Positions 48,370 through 56,227 of a DNA stretch of 64,000 nucleotides are shown here, in pieces. The translations under genes and the position numbers were made by a program. The first letter of the stretch is position 1; the number at the start of each line of letters is the position of its first letter. The notes under the pieces are model-generated. The model ran no database searches, was not told where the DNA came from, and saw nothing but the letters and a program-made list of their open reading frames with translations. Source of the DNA: Candidatus Paceibacterota bacterium (lineage in GTDB: Bacteria > Actinomycetota > Actinomycetes > Nanopelagicales > Nanopelagicaceae); the NCBI GenBank assembly GCA_035530615.1, contig DATKUL010000003.1, forward strand, positions 124,001 to 188,000. Direction: 5' to 3'.

Positions 48370-49661
48370 GTGATGAGAAAAAGACCGCCGTGAAAGCGGT
48401 CAAGGTAGTTAAGGGCGTCAAAGTTCCGACGATCTCTCCACGGAAGATTCGCATTACTGCCCTACTTGCCGTGATGGGGCCCGGAATGATTGCCGGGCTT
48501 TCGGATGATGATCCGGCGGGTATCACCACCTATTCACAAATGGGCGCGAAATATGGCTACCGTCTTCTTTGGGTACTCGTCCTCTCGACTCTTGCACTTA
48601 TTCTCTTTCAAGATCTCGGCGCGCGCATTGGTGTCGTAACCAGGCAGGGCCTTATCGGACTTGTGCGTCAGAAGTACGGGGCGCGTTCAGGAGTGTTCAG
48701 CGCCTCTTCACTCATCCTGGCCAATATCGGAACGATGACGGCAGAGTTCGCAGGAATTGCGGCAGCGGGACAACTATTCGGAGTTTCAAAATACCTCTCT
48801 GTCCCTGTCGCTGGAATGCTGGTGACTTTCTTGGTTTTGCGCGGGTCGTTTGGTCGCGTGGAAAAAGTGTTTTTTATTCTTTCCGCGGTTTTTCTTTCAT
48901 ACATACTTGCCGGTTTTTTGGCGCACCCTGATTGGGGAAAGGCATTTCATGGCATGGTTGTTCCGTCTATGCCACTCACCCGTGATGCCGTTTTTATTGC
49001 GACGGCGACATTAGGTACAACTCTTGCTCCGTGGGGACTTGCTTTCATCCAGTCATATGCAGTTGATAAACGCCTTACTCGCGATGATCTAAAACTATTG
49101 CGCGTTGATGTATGGACTGGATCCTTGCTTACGGGAATCATCGGATTCTTCGTCATTGTTACTTGCGCCGCAACTCTGAATCGCGAAGGAATCTTCACCA
49201 TCACAGATGCATCTCAAGCGGCAGCCGCATTAAAACCACTTGCCGGAACATTGGCGAAAGAGTTATTCGCGATTGGTTTAATTGGCGCGGCGCTATTAGC
49301 GGCATCAATTTTGCCTTTGTCTACAGCTTATTCAGTCAGTGATCTCACTGGCCGACCAGCTGCCCTCGATGATGGATTTAGAGAAGCTCCCCTCTTCTAC
49401 GGAACCTTCGCTGCGATCACCATTATTGCGGCCGGGTTGATTCTGCTTCCAGGTGCCCCGTTGGTCACGATCTTGCTTTGGACTCAAGTACTCAACGCTG
49501 TTCTACTCTTACCTCTTCTTTGCTACATGCTCGGAATTGCACGAGACAAACGCCTGATGGGTGAATATCGAGCTGGAGCCCGTATGCAAAGTGTTTATCT
49601 ACTTATTATTGGAATGGTCGCCGTCTGCATCGCTAGCATGATCTGGTTTACTTTTCATTAA
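48366..49661 (+). CDS. NRAMP-family divalent metal transporter, possibly Mg2+-type
   Basis: A 431-residue membrane protein with about 11 helices after a Lys/Val-rich tail. The NRAMP TM1 motif DPGN is replaced by DDDPAG at 47-52 and the TM6 MPH motif by TLGTTLAPW, the kind of change seen in NRAMP-related transporters that prefer Mg2+ over Mn2+/Fe2+. Coupling to a soluble MgtE-type sensor supports Mg2+ or related transport. Its last 63 bases overlap the convergent gene at 49599. Confidence 0.82.
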   Translation: MSDEKKTAVKAVKVVKGVKVPTISPRKIRITALLAVMGPGMIAGLSDDDPAGITTYSQMGAKYGYRLLWVLVLSTLALILFQDLGARIGVVTRQGLIGLVRQKYGARSGVFSASSLILANIGTMTAEFAGIAAAGQLFGVSKYLSVPVAGMLVTFLVLRGSFGRVEKVFFILSAVFLSYILAGFLAHPDWGKAFHGMVVPSMPLTRDAVFIATATLGTTLAPWGLAFIQSYAVDKRLTRDDLKLLRVDVWTGSLLTGIIGFFVIVTCAATLNREGIFTITDASQAAAALKPLAGTLAKELFAIGLIGAALLAASILPLSTAYSVSDLTGRPAALDDGFREAPLFYGTFAAITIIAAGLILLPGAPLVTILLWTQVLNAVLLLPLLCYMLGIARDKRLMGEYRAGARMQSVYLLIIGMVAVCIASMIWFTFH

Positions 49662-49967
49662 TTGATCTGCCTCGCGGGCGAGGGCGACAAGATCTGGCCG
49701 TGGGATTTTTGGAACATCACCTCTCATTAGCCGCCTCCATAGGTAGATGGCAACGCCAGCGAAGAATGGCCACTCAAAGGTGTAAACCCAAGCCCGCCAA
49801 TTGCCCTCATGAGCGCGGCCCCACTCGAACCAACCAGCCCACATGCAGAATGGCACCGCGGCCACCATTGCCCCGGTGATCCACTTCTTCGCTTTATCGG
49901 AAACCGGTGTAGTGCCGGCTTCCTCTTCGTGGATCCAGGTTGGCTCATTTGTTTCAAAATCTTTCAT
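49599..49967 (-). CDS. small membrane protein of unknown function next to ctaG
   Basis: A 122-residue protein with two membrane helices near 31-46 and 65-80 (WITGAMVAAVPFCMWAGWF and WPFFAGVAIYLWRR) and a charged tail. It overlaps the ctaG stop-start by four bases, so it is translated after CtaG. I do not recognise a family. Context suggests a role with the respiratory oxidase. Confidence 0.65.
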   Translation of the reverse strand: MKDFETNEPTWIHEEEAGTTPVSDKAKKWITGAMVAAVPFCMWAGWFEWGRAHEGNWRAWVYTFEWPFFAGVAIYLWRRLMRGDVPKIPRPDLVALAREADQLMKSKPDHASDADGDHSNNK

Positions 49968-50734
49968 CGCGCCTCATTCGCAATCTCTAGATCGACGGCC
50001 ATTGAAGCGCGTTCCTCGCTTTTGATCCAGTGGTAGACAGCAAAAGCCATCCAGACAGTATCAATGATCATTCCGCCCGACCACATAATGGATCCACCGC
50101 GACGCTGATCCGAGAGCGTGAACATCTGGTTGTAGAGGGAGTTTGGCGCCACGTAGATAAAGAAGCCGGTGAGAGTTTCTGGAACCATCATCAGGAAGAG
50201 GGCGATAACCGACATTGCGGGCGTGACGCGACGACCCGTGAGATTGCGATCGAGCAGATTGAAATAGAAGAGATAAGGGAGCGCTATATAGAGAGGGACC
50301 TCGACAAAAGTGTGTGCCCAGGGGTGATTGGTGATGAATTCATGTGGTCCGGGTAGGTGGACGCCGATCATTAAGGCGGCGTATGTAACCCAACTGAGAA
50401 TCGGATGAGTCAAAAGTCCGAAGACCTTATTCTTTGGGCGGAAGGTTCCAGGTGTCCCGAGCACCAGAAGTGGCCCGCTGATCATCATCAAAGTGATGTG
50501 CTGGATCATGTGACACCAGAAGAGATCAGCCGAGCGGACCCCAATGGGGGAGGTGATGACCAAAGCAATTGTGAGTAACCCGGCCAGGAAGAAGCGGCGC
50601 TCGCGTGCACTCGCCCACGTCGGATTGCGGAGGCCCTGGCGCAGATAGAGGTACTCAGCGGCGATGAGAGGGAGGGTGATCTCTGGAGCCACCTGCCACG
50701 AGGTCCAAAATTGGGCACTTTGGGTCATATTCAT
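49964..50734 (-). CDS. ctaG: cytochrome c oxidase assembly protein, CtaG (caa3 type)
   Basis: A 256-residue membrane protein with about seven helices. LFWCHMIQHITLMMISGPLLVLG and HPWAHTFVEVPLYIALPYLF match the caa3_CtaG family found in Gram-positive bacteria, where it helps build the copper centre of the oxidase. It lies about 2.2 kb from the oxidase genes on the opposite strand, with a Fic gene in between. Confidence 0.88.
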   Translation of the reverse strand: MNMTQSAQFWTSWQVAPEITLPLIAAEYLYLRQGLRNPTWASARERRFFLAGLLTIALVITSPIGVRSADLFWCHMIQHITLMMISGPLLVLGTPGTFRPKNKVFGLLTHPILSWVTYAALMIGVHLPGPHEFITNHPWAHTFVEVPLYIALPYLFYFNLLDRNLTGRRVTPAMSVIALFLMMVPETLTGFFIYVAPNSLYNQMFTLSDQRRGGSIMWSGGMIIDTVWMAFAVYHWIKSEERASMAVDLEIANEAR

Positions 50735-50746
50735 ATTCGGCGAAGA

Positions 50747-52009
50747 TTAGACCCCTCGCTGCCGTATAGATAGACGGCGGGTGTCAACCCCATTCGGGCC
50801 GGCAAGTTGTCGTTCCAACTCAGCAAATGCGGCGATAATTTCTGGGGCCTCATACACTCTATTGCGCATTCTGCTGGACATAGATTTAAGAATTTCGGCT
50901 TCCACCAATACAGATATGGCTTCATTGGTCTGCTTATGAGTTGTTCTTGTTAGATTCATCGCTGTTGCGACGGTTAAGATCGGCATGCCGACTAAGCCTT
51001 TCAAGAGAGTATCGAGGGAGGATCCCTTTCGTACAGTGCCCAACTTGCTCCGCCACCGCTGTTCGATTGTGCCCACCTTAGTTTCAAATTCCAATGAGTC
51101 GCTCACTGCTCGCTGACAAGCTGCCGCAAACCTTCCAACCCAAAGATTGAATCCTGCATGTGCCGATGCTGAGTCTGATTCCCCGACATAGCGAGTACCC
51201 ATCAATCCCTCAACGTAGTCTCGTGCCCAGGTGGCAAGAACGAGCGAAACTGGTGGGATAACTCTTTCGGCAAGCCCTCGCCGACGCAGAATCATTTGAA
51301 TGAGAACCCGCCCGGTTCTGCCATTTCCATCTAGGAATGGGTGGATTGTCGCAAATTGGGCGTGCGCAATCGCTGCTTGCGCTACTGCAGGTAAATCATC
51401 GCTGTTGCAAAACTCAACTAAGTCGGCCATAAGAGGGCTCACTACTTCCCAATGTGGTGGTACAAAATCGGCCGAGCATGGATTGAAGTTGTTGCCTCCG
51501 ATCCAATTTTGCTGCTCCCTCAACTTGCCGCCTACGCTTGAGAGAGTTGTGCTCGCTAACAGTTCTCTGTTTATCTCCAGTATCTGATCCAACGTAATAA
51601 GGTCGCCTTTTTCGATCGACGCAATTGCGTAGTTCATTGCGTTGATATTGGCTAACACTTCCTTGGCCGATATTTCTACGTGGAGACCTTCAGTGCCTTG
51701 GTCGACTTCTGCTTTTAGTATCCGACGCGCTCCCATGACTAAGCCCTCAATCCGAGAGGACGCGACGGACTCGGCCCGCAGCAGAATGCGTGCGAGAGCC
51801 TCAGTGTTGACTAGCGCAGAGGCATCCGTGTTGAACCGGGCAATTGCTGCTTCGGCATCGGCCACATCGGCGGCGACCGGACCATCGAGTAGAAATTGCC
51901 TGCCCAGGAGATTGTCTGGGATGTATACCTGGTACTTACAGGGTTGCCGGTCCCTTCGAGATCGCCCGACACCGCCGTCTCTCCAGACCCTTTCTTCTAT
52001 GTGGGACAT
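50747..52009 (-). CDS. Fic family protein (AMP transferase) with C-terminal winged helix
   Basis: A 420-residue Fic protein with the active-site motif HPFLDGNGRTGR at 223-234 and, before the core, the inhibitory helix motif SSRIEGL at 84-90 (Glu88), so a self-inhibited class II enzyme. The C-terminal part (LTVATAMNLTRTTHKQTNEA) looks like a winged helix-turn-helix. The enzyme transfers AMP to protein hydroxyls. AGAGG precedes the ATG. A large palindrome lies just upstream and may be its own operator. It interrupts the ctaG-oxidase region. Confidence 0.9.
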   Translation of the reverse strand: MSHIEERVWRDGGVGRSRRDRQPCKYQVYIPDNLLGRQFLLDGPVAADVADAEAAIARFNTDASALVNTEALARILLRAESVASSRIEGLVMGARRILKAEVDQGTEGLHVEISAKEVLANINAMNYAIASIEKGDLITLDQILEINRELLASTTLSSVGGKLREQQNWIGGNNFNPCSADFVPPHWEVVSPLMADLVEFCNSDDLPAVAQAAIAHAQFATIHPFLDGNGRTGRVLIQMILRRRGLAERVIPPVSLVLATWARDYVEGLMGTRYVGESDSASAHAGFNLWVGRFAAACQRAVSDSLEFETKVGTIEQRWRSKLGTVRKGSSLDTLLKGLVGMPILTVATAMNLTRTTHKQTNEAISVLVEAEILKSMSSRMRNRVYEAPEIIAAFAELERQLAGPNGVDTRRLSIRQRGV

Positions 52010-52232: not shown

Positions 52233-52922
52233 ATGAACAAACGCTTGTTTGCGGCACTTGGCACAGTGATTCTCGGAGCGGGGCTGATAACTGGCATTGG
52301 TACATATGTCTCATCGGCCAAGAACGACTCCCGCGTTTTGGCTGCAACACCGGCGGGCACGATCGATACACCGCAGGGAAAGCTTCCGCATTACACACTT
52401 GATCTGTCCTCCTATCCGGACAGCATGGCGGGAAGCCATGGAGCCGGCGGGGGTGCCCACCCTGACTGGGTAACTTTTGGACCGGTAACAAATTTTGAAG
52501 TCCCTGCGCACTCTGCAATCACGATAACGGTTAGGCAGTATGACGGCGGCGAAACGATAACCAACGATTTTTTCGCAACGGTGCGTGGCACGGTAGATGG
52601 CACGATGACAGTTAACGGCGAGAAGGTGACGTCAATCCCCGCTAATCAAATTGGTCACACCTGGACCTTGCACGGATTATCAGATGGTCAGGATCAATTA
52701 TTTGTGAGCGTCCCATTAAAGGCTGTACCCGAGGAGGAGATGCCGGAAGAGGGTTACTCGAGTAATCCTCCGACCACAACATTTACTTTCATAACTGGGG
52801 ATGCAGGTGAGTACATCTGGAACTGCGAATTTCCTTGTGGCGACGGCACAGTCGCACGATTTGGTGCAGCGATGTCCACCATGGGTTACATGTCCGGCCA
52901 CTTCACTGTAGTGAACGCGTAA
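52233..52922 (+). CDS. membrane-anchored cupredoxin-like protein
   Basis: A 229-residue exported protein with an N-terminal anchor (LFAALGTVILGAGLITGIG) and a cupredoxin-type fold. Possible copper ligands are His142 in GHTWTLHGL, Cys198 and Cys202 in WNCEFPCGDG, and methionines at 214, 217 or 220 in AAMSTMGYMSGHFTV. It ends 13 bases before subunit II, with GGGGGA before its own ATG, so it is the first gene of the oxidase operon. It may be an electron carrier or copper donor for the oxidase. Confidence 0.72.
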   Translation: MNKRLFAALGTVILGAGLITGIGTYVSSAKNDSRVLAATPAGTIDTPQGKLPHYTLDLSSYPDSMAGSHGAGGGAHPDWVTFGPVTNFEVPAHSAITITVRQYDGGETITNDFFATVRGTVDGTMTVNGEKVTSIPANQIGHTWTLHGLSDGQDQLFVSVPLKAVPEEEMPEEGYSSNPPTTTFTFITGDAGEYIWNCEFPCGDGTVARFGAAMSTMGYMSGHFTVVNA

Positions 52923-52935
52923 GGGGGCCGCGATA

Positions 52936-53703
52936 ATGTCTGACTTAGAAACTCAGAAGCGCTCTTCTATATTCAAGCGCAAAGATGTGCAACAGACTGG
53001 ATTGCTCTGGATTGTTCTAACAGCAATTATTGGATTCGTCGCTTCCGAAGTGCAGATTCGATCAATGGGTGCACCTGCCTCCGAAACTATGGCGACGACC
53101 ATAAATATGATGCGCGTATTTACGTGGGCCGCCGCACCAATCGCTGGTTTGGTAGCCGCCATGGCTTTAACTACTTTGTTAGCAAAGCGCCACTATGGAG
53201 ATACTCCACCAGATGATGCTGATCATGAAATCCGCGACAGTCCGCGGGTAGCAGGCACTTGGATAATTGTGTCGGCATTGATGTGTCTCTTCGCACTCAT
53301 TTGGGGCATGGTTGCTTTGCAGCGCGAAAGTGCGGGGCTCTTTGATCCGAAGGCCATGCACGTCAATGTTGTCGGCCAGCAGTGGGCTTGGAATTTCGAT
53401 TACGTGGATAATGGGACGGTTCGAAGTTAGGATCTGTATCTTCCAGTCGATAAACCAGTTGTCTTTAACGTAACAAGTAAAGATGTGATCCACTCTTTCT
53501 GGATCGTTCAAATGGGTATCAAGATTGATGCCAACCCGGGCTATATGACACAGACCTCGGTAACCCCCGACAAGATCGGCGTGTACGACTTAAGGTGCGC
53601 CGAACTATGCGGGCTACTGCACGCTTATATGCAGAAGAAAGTTCATGTTGTAAGCCAGGCCGATTACGACGCGTGGATTACGAATAATGGGGGGCAAATT
53701 TAA
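52936..53703 (+). CDS. ctaC: cytochrome c oxidase subunit II, interrupted by an in-frame TAG
   Basis: Residues 1-164 give two membrane helices (GLLWIVLTAIIGFVASEV and GTWIIVSALMCLFALIWGM) and GQQWAWNFDY. Then TAG at 53428-53430 stops the frame. The same frame goes on without a gap as DLYLPVDKPVVFNVTSKDVIH and ends with the complete CuA motif CAELCGLLHAYM and a normal stop at 53701-53703. Nothing else is damaged, and the stop is one base from several sense codons. So either a recent nonsense mutation, a sequencing or assembly error, or read-through. The ctaD start overlaps the final stop. Confidence 0.88.
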
Positions 53704-55583
53704 TGACAACAATGATGGATCGTTCACCTTCTGCTCCCGGATATTCCGCGTCTAAGAAAGCTCTCATCGAGCGCCTTAACATGTGGACTGGGTTTGCACT
53801 CGGAATCATTATGGCGGTCGTTTTTTACTATCTCTCTAAAGCACTCCTGCCGGCAAACACTGAAGAGTCATTCATCAAGACCAATCAAGATCAGTATGTG
53901 CTTCTGTCAATGATCGGTTGGCTCATCGGATTCATGACAGGAATAGGTGCTCTTATTGCTCCCTTCCGTTGGGTCATGGGTAGAGATCTGAGCCATGATG
54001 AGAATTTGTTTTATGCCGGCAAGGATCAGGGGATTAAGCGATATTTTCGTTTTACCACAGATCACAAAGTGGTAGGCATTCAGTATTTAGTCATCACGAT
54101 GGTGATTTTCGGCGTAGGTGGAATTCTGGCGATGTTGATCCGCACCAACTTGGGTCACGCTGGAGGAGGGTGGTTGCACCCACAGGCTTACAACGCAGTT
54201 GTCGGTTATCACGGCATCATCATGATTGTCGGAACGATCATCATGGTGACTGGACCATTCGGTAACTTCATTATGCCGATCATGATCGGCGCTCGCGATA
54301 TGGCCTTTCCTCGTTTGAATGCACTGAGCTTCTGGCTCGTTGTGGCAGCTATTCCACCACTGCTTGCCTCATTCTTCCTGGGAGGAATTTCAACAGGGTG
54401 GTCGGCTTACAATCCACTTGCGTCACAGGCACCTCATGGCATGGATGGGTACATCATGTTCATCGTGATTTTCGCTCTCTCGACAATGGTCGCAGGTGCA
54501 AATATCACAACCACGGTAGTAAAAATGCGGGCAAAGGGAATGACATGGAATCGCACGCCAATATTTGTTTATGGTGTTGTCGCCTCCGTTGCGTTGGCAT
54601 TGCCTGCGTTCCCAGTCTTCTTCTTGTCACAAGTTATGTCGGCGATGGATCGGGCAATGGGATCCACTTTCTTCGACCCGCGCGGTGGTGGGAGTGGCTG
54701 GCTTTATGAGAATCTCTTCTGGATCATGGGACACCCTGAGGTCTATGTCATTTTGATTCCAGCTGTCGCGGCGCTTATGGAGATGGCCCCGGTATTTACG
54801 CGCCGCCCACTCTTTAGTTTCAATGTTGCGGTTCTGGGGATTGCAGGAATTTCTGGCTTGAGCATTCTCGTTTGGGCCCACCATATGTATACGACTGGAT
54901 GGGCACCGCTTCTCAACGGACCATTTATGTTGACGACTGAGCTAATTTCGATTCCAACGGGAATGTTGTTCTTTGTTCTCATCGGAACCCTCTGGCGCGG
55001 TCGGCTCTGGATGACAATGCCGACAGCGTCAATTTACGCTCTGCTCTGGAATTTCATGATTGGTGGCATCACTGGGATTTATCTTTCAGATGTGCCAATT
55101 GACGCCTTCCTGCATGGTTCGATGTACGTAACCGCTCACTTCCATTACACCTTGATGGGTGCTGGCTTGACTGGGGCACTTGCCGCGCTGGTCTACTGGT
55201 TCCCAAAGATGACGGGTCGTATGTTCGATAAGTCCCTGAGCTGGATTTCATTCTGGTTGGTGCAGATCGGATTCAATGTGACCTTCATCGGTATGTTCCT
55301 GGTCGGGCTTGCCGGACAACCTCGCCGAGTTGAGGCATACCCCGCGGCATTTAGCCAGGGCAATCTGATTACGACCATGGGCGCCTACACAATTATGGCC
55401 GGCATGCTGGTCCTGCTTTATGGCGTTATCTCCTCGTGGCGAAGTGGGGCGCTGGCTCCTGCGAATCCTTGGTTTGCCAAGACTCTGGAATGGTCGGTGC
55501 CTAACCCGGTGCCACTCGAGAACTTTGCGGTGCTTCCGGTAGTCACATCAGATCCTTACGGATACGGAAAGGCGAAGTCATGA
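53703..55583 (+). CDS. ctaD: cytochrome c oxidase subunit I with N-terminal two-helix extension
   Basis: A 626-residue subunit I. The usual start, RYFRFTTDHKVVGIQYL, occurs only near residue 114. Before it are two extra helices (FALGIIMAVVFYYLSKAL, VLLSMIGWLIGFMTGIGAL). The haem and CuB ligands are present: YHGIIMI, GHPEVYVI, WAHHMYT and TAHFHYT. No separate CtaF/subunit IV gene follows, so the extension may stand in for it. It overlaps ctaC by one base and ctaE by four. Confidence 0.95.
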   Translation: MTTMMDRSPSAPGYSASKKALIERLNMWTGFALGIIMAVVFYYLSKALLPANTEESFIKTNQDQYVLLSMIGWLIGFMTGIGALIAPFRWVMGRDLSHDENLFYAGKDQGIKRYFRFTTDHKVVGIQYLVITMVIFGVGGILAMLIRTNLGHAGGGWLHPQAYNAVVGYHGIIMIVGTIIMVTGPFGNFIMPIMIGARDMAFPRLNALSFWLVVAAIPPLLASFFLGGISTGWSAYNPLASQAPHGMDGYIMFIVIFALSTMVAGANITTTVVKMRAKGMTWNRTPIFVYGVVASVALALPAFPVFFLSQVMSAMDRAMGSTFFDPRGGGSGWLYENLFWIMGHPEVYVILIPAVAALMEMAPVFTRRPLFSFNVAVLGIAGISGLSILVWAHHMYTTGWAPLLNGPFMLTTELISIPTGMLFFVLIGTLWRGRLWMTMPTASIYALLWNFMIGGITGIYLSDVPIDAFLHGSMYVTAHFHYTLMGAGLTGALAALVYWFPKMTGRMFDKSLSWISFWLVQIGFNVTFIGMFLVGLAGQPRRVEAYPAAFSQGNLITTMGAYTIMAGMLVLLYGVISSWRSGALAPANPWFAKTLEWSVPNPVPLENFAVLPVVTSDPYGYGKAKS

Positions 55584-56227
55584 GCGTCGAGACACATGGA
55601 CATTCAACCCCGCATGATGAAAATCCTAATTACCATCACGAACATCCCGATGTAGTTGGTTCACGTAATCGACTTGGTCTCATATTGATCCTGGTGGCAG
55701 ACATCGCCTTCGCGTTGAGTGTGATCTTTGTTTACTTCTACCTCAAAGGCCAGAACGTCAACGATATGTGGCTTCCAAAGGCGAGTACTCATGATGGTGT
55801 AGTCAGCCCTGGAACAATCCCGGTTTCAAGTATGGGCGCCTGGTATCTCACCGTCATTGCTGCCTTCGGATTGGTGATGCATCGGTACGCACTTGCTGGA
55901 GCGAGAGCTAAGAATCAAACCCAACTTGTCCTTGGATCTGGGGTCGCCTTCATTGCAAGCTTTGTTGCCCTCATCTACCAAGGAGTTCAGTTTGGTGGCG
56001 CCCCATTCACGATCACTATGGGTGCGTACGCATCGTGCTACTTCTTGATCGCCGGGTTGAACTTTGTGCATCTCTTTATTACTGCGTTTATCGCACTAGG
56101 CAATTGGAATCGCTCCCGTCTGGGGTTATACCAAGCCGACCACTGGCATGTTGAAATCGTAAAAGTTTGGTGGATCTGGATGACCGTCTCTTCACTGCTG
56201 GGAGCCTTCGCTCTTTCCTTTACATAA
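55580..56227 (+). CDS. ctaE: cytochrome c oxidase subunit III
   Basis: A 215-residue membrane protein with five helices; a His-rich start (HGHSTPHDENPNYHHEHPD) is followed by LGLILILVADIAFALSVIFVY and ends with HWHVEIVKVWWIWMTVSSLLG, typical of subunit III (family COX3). It closes the oxidase operon, 11 bases before a strong terminator. Confidence 0.93.
   Translation: MSVETHGHSTPHDENPNYHHEHPDVVGSRNRLGLILILVADIAFALSVIFVYFYLKGQNVNDMWLPKASTHDGVVSPGTIPVSSMGAWYLTVIAAFGLVMHRYALAGARAKNQTQLVLGSGVAFIASFVALIYQGVQFGGAPFTITMGAYASCYFLIAGLNFVHLFITAFIALGNWNRSRLGLYQADHWHVEIVKVWWIWMTVSSLLGAFALSFT

Follow-up and report, generated by a model that had tools for sequence, protein, structure and literature searches.

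The cytochrome c oxidase subunit II gene (coxB/ctaC-like) described here is broken by an in-frame TAG at codon 165 of 255. The reading we favour, with a probability of roughly 0.54, is a genuine, recent nonsense mutation of one base in an accessory oxidase, the mutation being either fixed or segregating in the population from which the sample came. The gene occupies positions 52936..53703 on the plus strand of the window, i.e. the whole stretch of 64,000 nt that was analysed (assembly GCA_035530615.1, contig DATKUL010000003.1, 124,001-188,000 of the forward strand). The host, Candidatus Paceibacterota bacterium (GTDB: Nanopelagicaceae), is a freshwater-type actinobacterium whose assembly consists of 3 contigs. 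The gene was delimited by ORF calls, read-through translation and profile matches. Its ORF starts at ATG 52936 and closes after 164 codons at the TAG (53428..53430, plus strand), and if this codon is read as X, residue 165, the frame continues to TAA 53701-53703 and yields 255 residues. Residues 47-248 of the read-through protein match the NCBIfam CoxB model TIGR02866 with 158 bits, above the membership cut-off of 147.7. The 90 codons past the stop (53431..53700, plus strand) encode most of the cupredoxin domain, reaching 69 bits against PF00116 by themselves. As the preliminary description had stated, the frame is the same on either side of the stop and the CuA motif lies beyond it. All CuA ligands (H, C, E, C, H, M) are present, and both the ligand His in HSFW (residue 186) and the motif CAELCGLLHAYM (from residue 221) are located 3′ of the TAG.

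Comparison with relatives was extended in steps from 60 relatives to 21 genus genomes and then to 296 family genomes, with one genome per species. The accessory oxidase gene, scored as present at E <= 1e-60, was found in 52 of the 296 family genomes. It occurs in 15 of the 21 genus genomes and was not found in the other six, some of which are incomplete. None of the 53 other copies, from 51 other family genomes, carries a stop at this site; the window copy alone has one. The closest relative shares 79% overall identity in an alignment without a gap, which bears out the earlier claim that no residue is missing at the stop. Identity amounts to 122 of 164 residues before the TAG and to 78 of 89 after it, and such a gapless match in the same frame on both sides is not due to chance. 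Moreover, the part behind the stop deviates at none of 33 columns that are invariant across 30 relatives, and dN/dS lies well under 1 on either side (0.15/2.40 before and 0.08/2.07 after the stop, with dS near saturation). Any loss must therefore be recent. In the alignment of orthologues, residue 165 is variable (E, Q, A, H, D, N or S) and thus not a specially constrained site.

The remainder of the operon, ordered cupredoxin-like protein, COX2, COX1 and COX3, shows no second damage, a point against the favoured reading. The subunit I gene (COX1, 53703..55583, plus strand) begins with a one-base overlap with the subunit II stop codon, and the subunit III gene (COX3, 55580..56227, plus strand) overlaps COX1 by 4 bases. 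Both are intact by ORF and domain match, so that the earlier account of undamaged, normally overlapping oxidase genes downstream was correct. Adjoining COX2, an ORF at 52233..52922 (plus strand) encodes an exported cupredoxin-like protein with a C-PCG-...-MGYM motif. It has no match in Pfam or NCBIfam, is retained in the closest relative according to locus comparison, and may supply the window oxidase with electrons or copper. Divergently oriented upstream of the operon, past a Fic-domain gene, are genes for a CtaG-type oxidase assembly factor (49964..50734, minus strand; PF09678) and an adjoining small membrane protein (49599..49967, minus strand), an ORF that locus comparison likewise finds in the closest relative. 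The Fic/DOC-domain gene (50747-52009) is an insertion that separates ctaG from the cupredoxin gene; it is missing there in L034, the closest relative found, in which the gene order is otherwise identical.

The window oxidase is an accessory, or spare, enzyme. Separate intact genes for CtaC, CtaD, a small CtaF-like membrane protein, COX3 and cytochrome bc1 are encoded elsewhere in the genome (G000:C2 391k-402k; names other than COX1 and COX2 come from reading the translations, not from profile searches), and near this second set lies the gene for a third protein with a COX2 domain. With this second cytochrome c oxidase system intact, aerobic respiration would not be lost. The preliminary description held that the oxidase would not work without subunit II; this is reasonable for the window complex but does not extend to respiration as a whole. 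Loss of the window oxidase would presumably be tolerable, and a gene that is intact in relatives and, judging from the second oxidase and the patchy presence, dispensable is what is expected of a recent nonsense pseudogene. In the sequence of events that we propose, a nonsense mutation hit a site of subunit II that tolerates change, and translation would end past the membrane anchor, so that no CuA domain would be produced. With this domain absent, the window oxidase probably either fails to assemble or lacks activity. The overlapping subunit I gene may also be translated less, because coupling from upstream would be cut. Aerobic respiration would continue via the other oxidase, whose genes are intact, and the broken gene would have had no time yet to decay.

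The alternative that had been put forward to a sequence error or population variant was that the codon is read through. Such read-through of the UAG, programmed or otherwise efficient, would give full-length subunit II. Conservation of both halves in a common frame is what such a mechanism would leave behind, but a stop at this site is absent from all other copies. Neither relatives, tRNAs, release factors, stop usage nor RNA structure supports it. The host genome yielded 60 matches in the tRNA family search, and the anticodon CUA is absent from all loci among them that were fetched. An additional scan of the retrieved stretches for a CUA loop closed by a paired anticodon stem was negative, and no tRNA-Sec scored above the cut-off in the host genome. 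Release factors resembling RF1 and RF2 by sequence are both present and uninterrupted. The RNA 3′ of the stop forms no stable structure, folding no better than shuffled sequence (z −0.02), and nothing relevant on stop-codon read-through in subunit II of oxidases emerged from a literature search. With the conserved stop, the suppressor tRNA and the stimulating RNA structure all absent, we consider programmed read-through very unlikely. If anything, we give even less credence to near-cognate tRNAs reading UAG at a useful rate in the host species alone, resulting in a low, tunable level of the accessory oxidase. Genome-wide checks of stops and ORFs were carried out on a 506-kb sample of stretches from the host genome. 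There, TAG terminates 112 of 396 ORFs of at least 150 aa (28%), and no other domain spans a stop among adjacent same-frame coding stretches. Six more same-frame pairs in the sample were considered as interrupted genes and rejected as neighbouring separate genes; further pairs with a start codon at most 11 codons from the stop were assigned as neighbours without a domain test. The lack of any other stop-interrupted gene in this sample points to a single event and not to recoding. Reassignment of UAG to an amino acid in the host has nothing but codon 165 in its favour, and against it stand the intact RF1, the frequent use of TAG as a terminator and the tRNA set devoid of a detected CUA anticodon. 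General reassignment is thereby refuted, and its probability is practically nil.

The tRNA search also brought up about a dozen extra tRNA-like genes outside the window (G000 loci L106, L110, L112, L113, L120, L122 and L123). Most have valine anticodons (AAC, GAC, CAC, TAC), and they fall into three sequence families, score below the standard set and often lack U33. An Arg-like family among them occurs in the close relatives G004, G005 and G006 as well, with three copies within 1.1 kb in G005 (loops GAT, GAC and AAC). These genes are candidates for tRNA-derived repeats or non-decoding tRNAs. A further tRNA-like sequence, in which the anticodon arm is shortened (L114 10808-10876 = G000:C1:500807-500875), located 1.3 kb from tRNA-Pro(CGG) and not called by ARAGORN, is probably a pseudo-tRNA or an integration scar.

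Subunit II might also be made in two pieces, the C-terminal half being translated from its own start. In chlorophycean algae, subunit II is split as a Cox2a/Cox2b pair. The window gene resembles this pair in that the break falls between membrane anchor and CuA domain, and in that the C-terminal 90 codons match PF00116 alone. It differs in that its second half lacks a start, a signal and an anchor of its own. Not until 18 codons past the stop does an in-frame start codon occur, within the domain and beside the ligand His, and a product from there would contain an incomplete domain. As no relative is split either, we regard this arrangement as scarcely credible. Even taken jointly, all readings besides a nonsense change and a consensus error are unlikely. 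A consensus error at one base of the assembly, with the gene intact in the organism, is the weightier competitor, and we see it as a real possibility, albeit the less probable one. One substitution accounts for everything, decay is absent on either side of the stop, and no other family member shares it. The 3-contig genome suggests long reads; base errors in long-read assemblies are described as yielding premature stops (PMC12007338), and uncorrected nanopore consensus errors cluster at modified motifs (PMC6591954). On the other hand, the assembly looks clean: coding density is 91%, the 506-kb sample yielded no other stop-interrupted gene, and of 25 overlapping same-strand ORF pairs, the five pairs tested (ten ORFs) include no domain split by a frameshift. 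This leans mildly towards a real mutation. The earlier suggestion of an error or a population variant fits all evidence; a fixed recent mutation should be included with it.

A lone stop in one assembled genome is no evidence of recoding, and genome-level controls, namely tRNAs, release factors, stop usage and relatives, argue against it here. The stop reveals no new mechanism, and the kind of event is already known. If the base is real, it shows an accessory oxidase at an early stage of being lost from a lineage in which its distribution is already patchy. In membrane segments, cupredoxin domain, CuA ligands and COX2-COX1-COX3 order the gene corresponds to CoxB/CtaC (TIGR02866, PF00116), from which it differs in the TAG at codon 165, a single unbroken reading frame being a CoxB trait. 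With respect to CtaC of the actinobacterial aa3 oxidase, the window subunit II is a paralogue, scoring only 115.6 bits against NF050117 (cut-off 250). Compared with bacterial nonsense-allele pseudogenes, the window case is very young, without further decay and inseparable here from a sequencing error, but like them it consists of a lone stop in a dispensable gene that is otherwise undamaged and whose relatives are intact.
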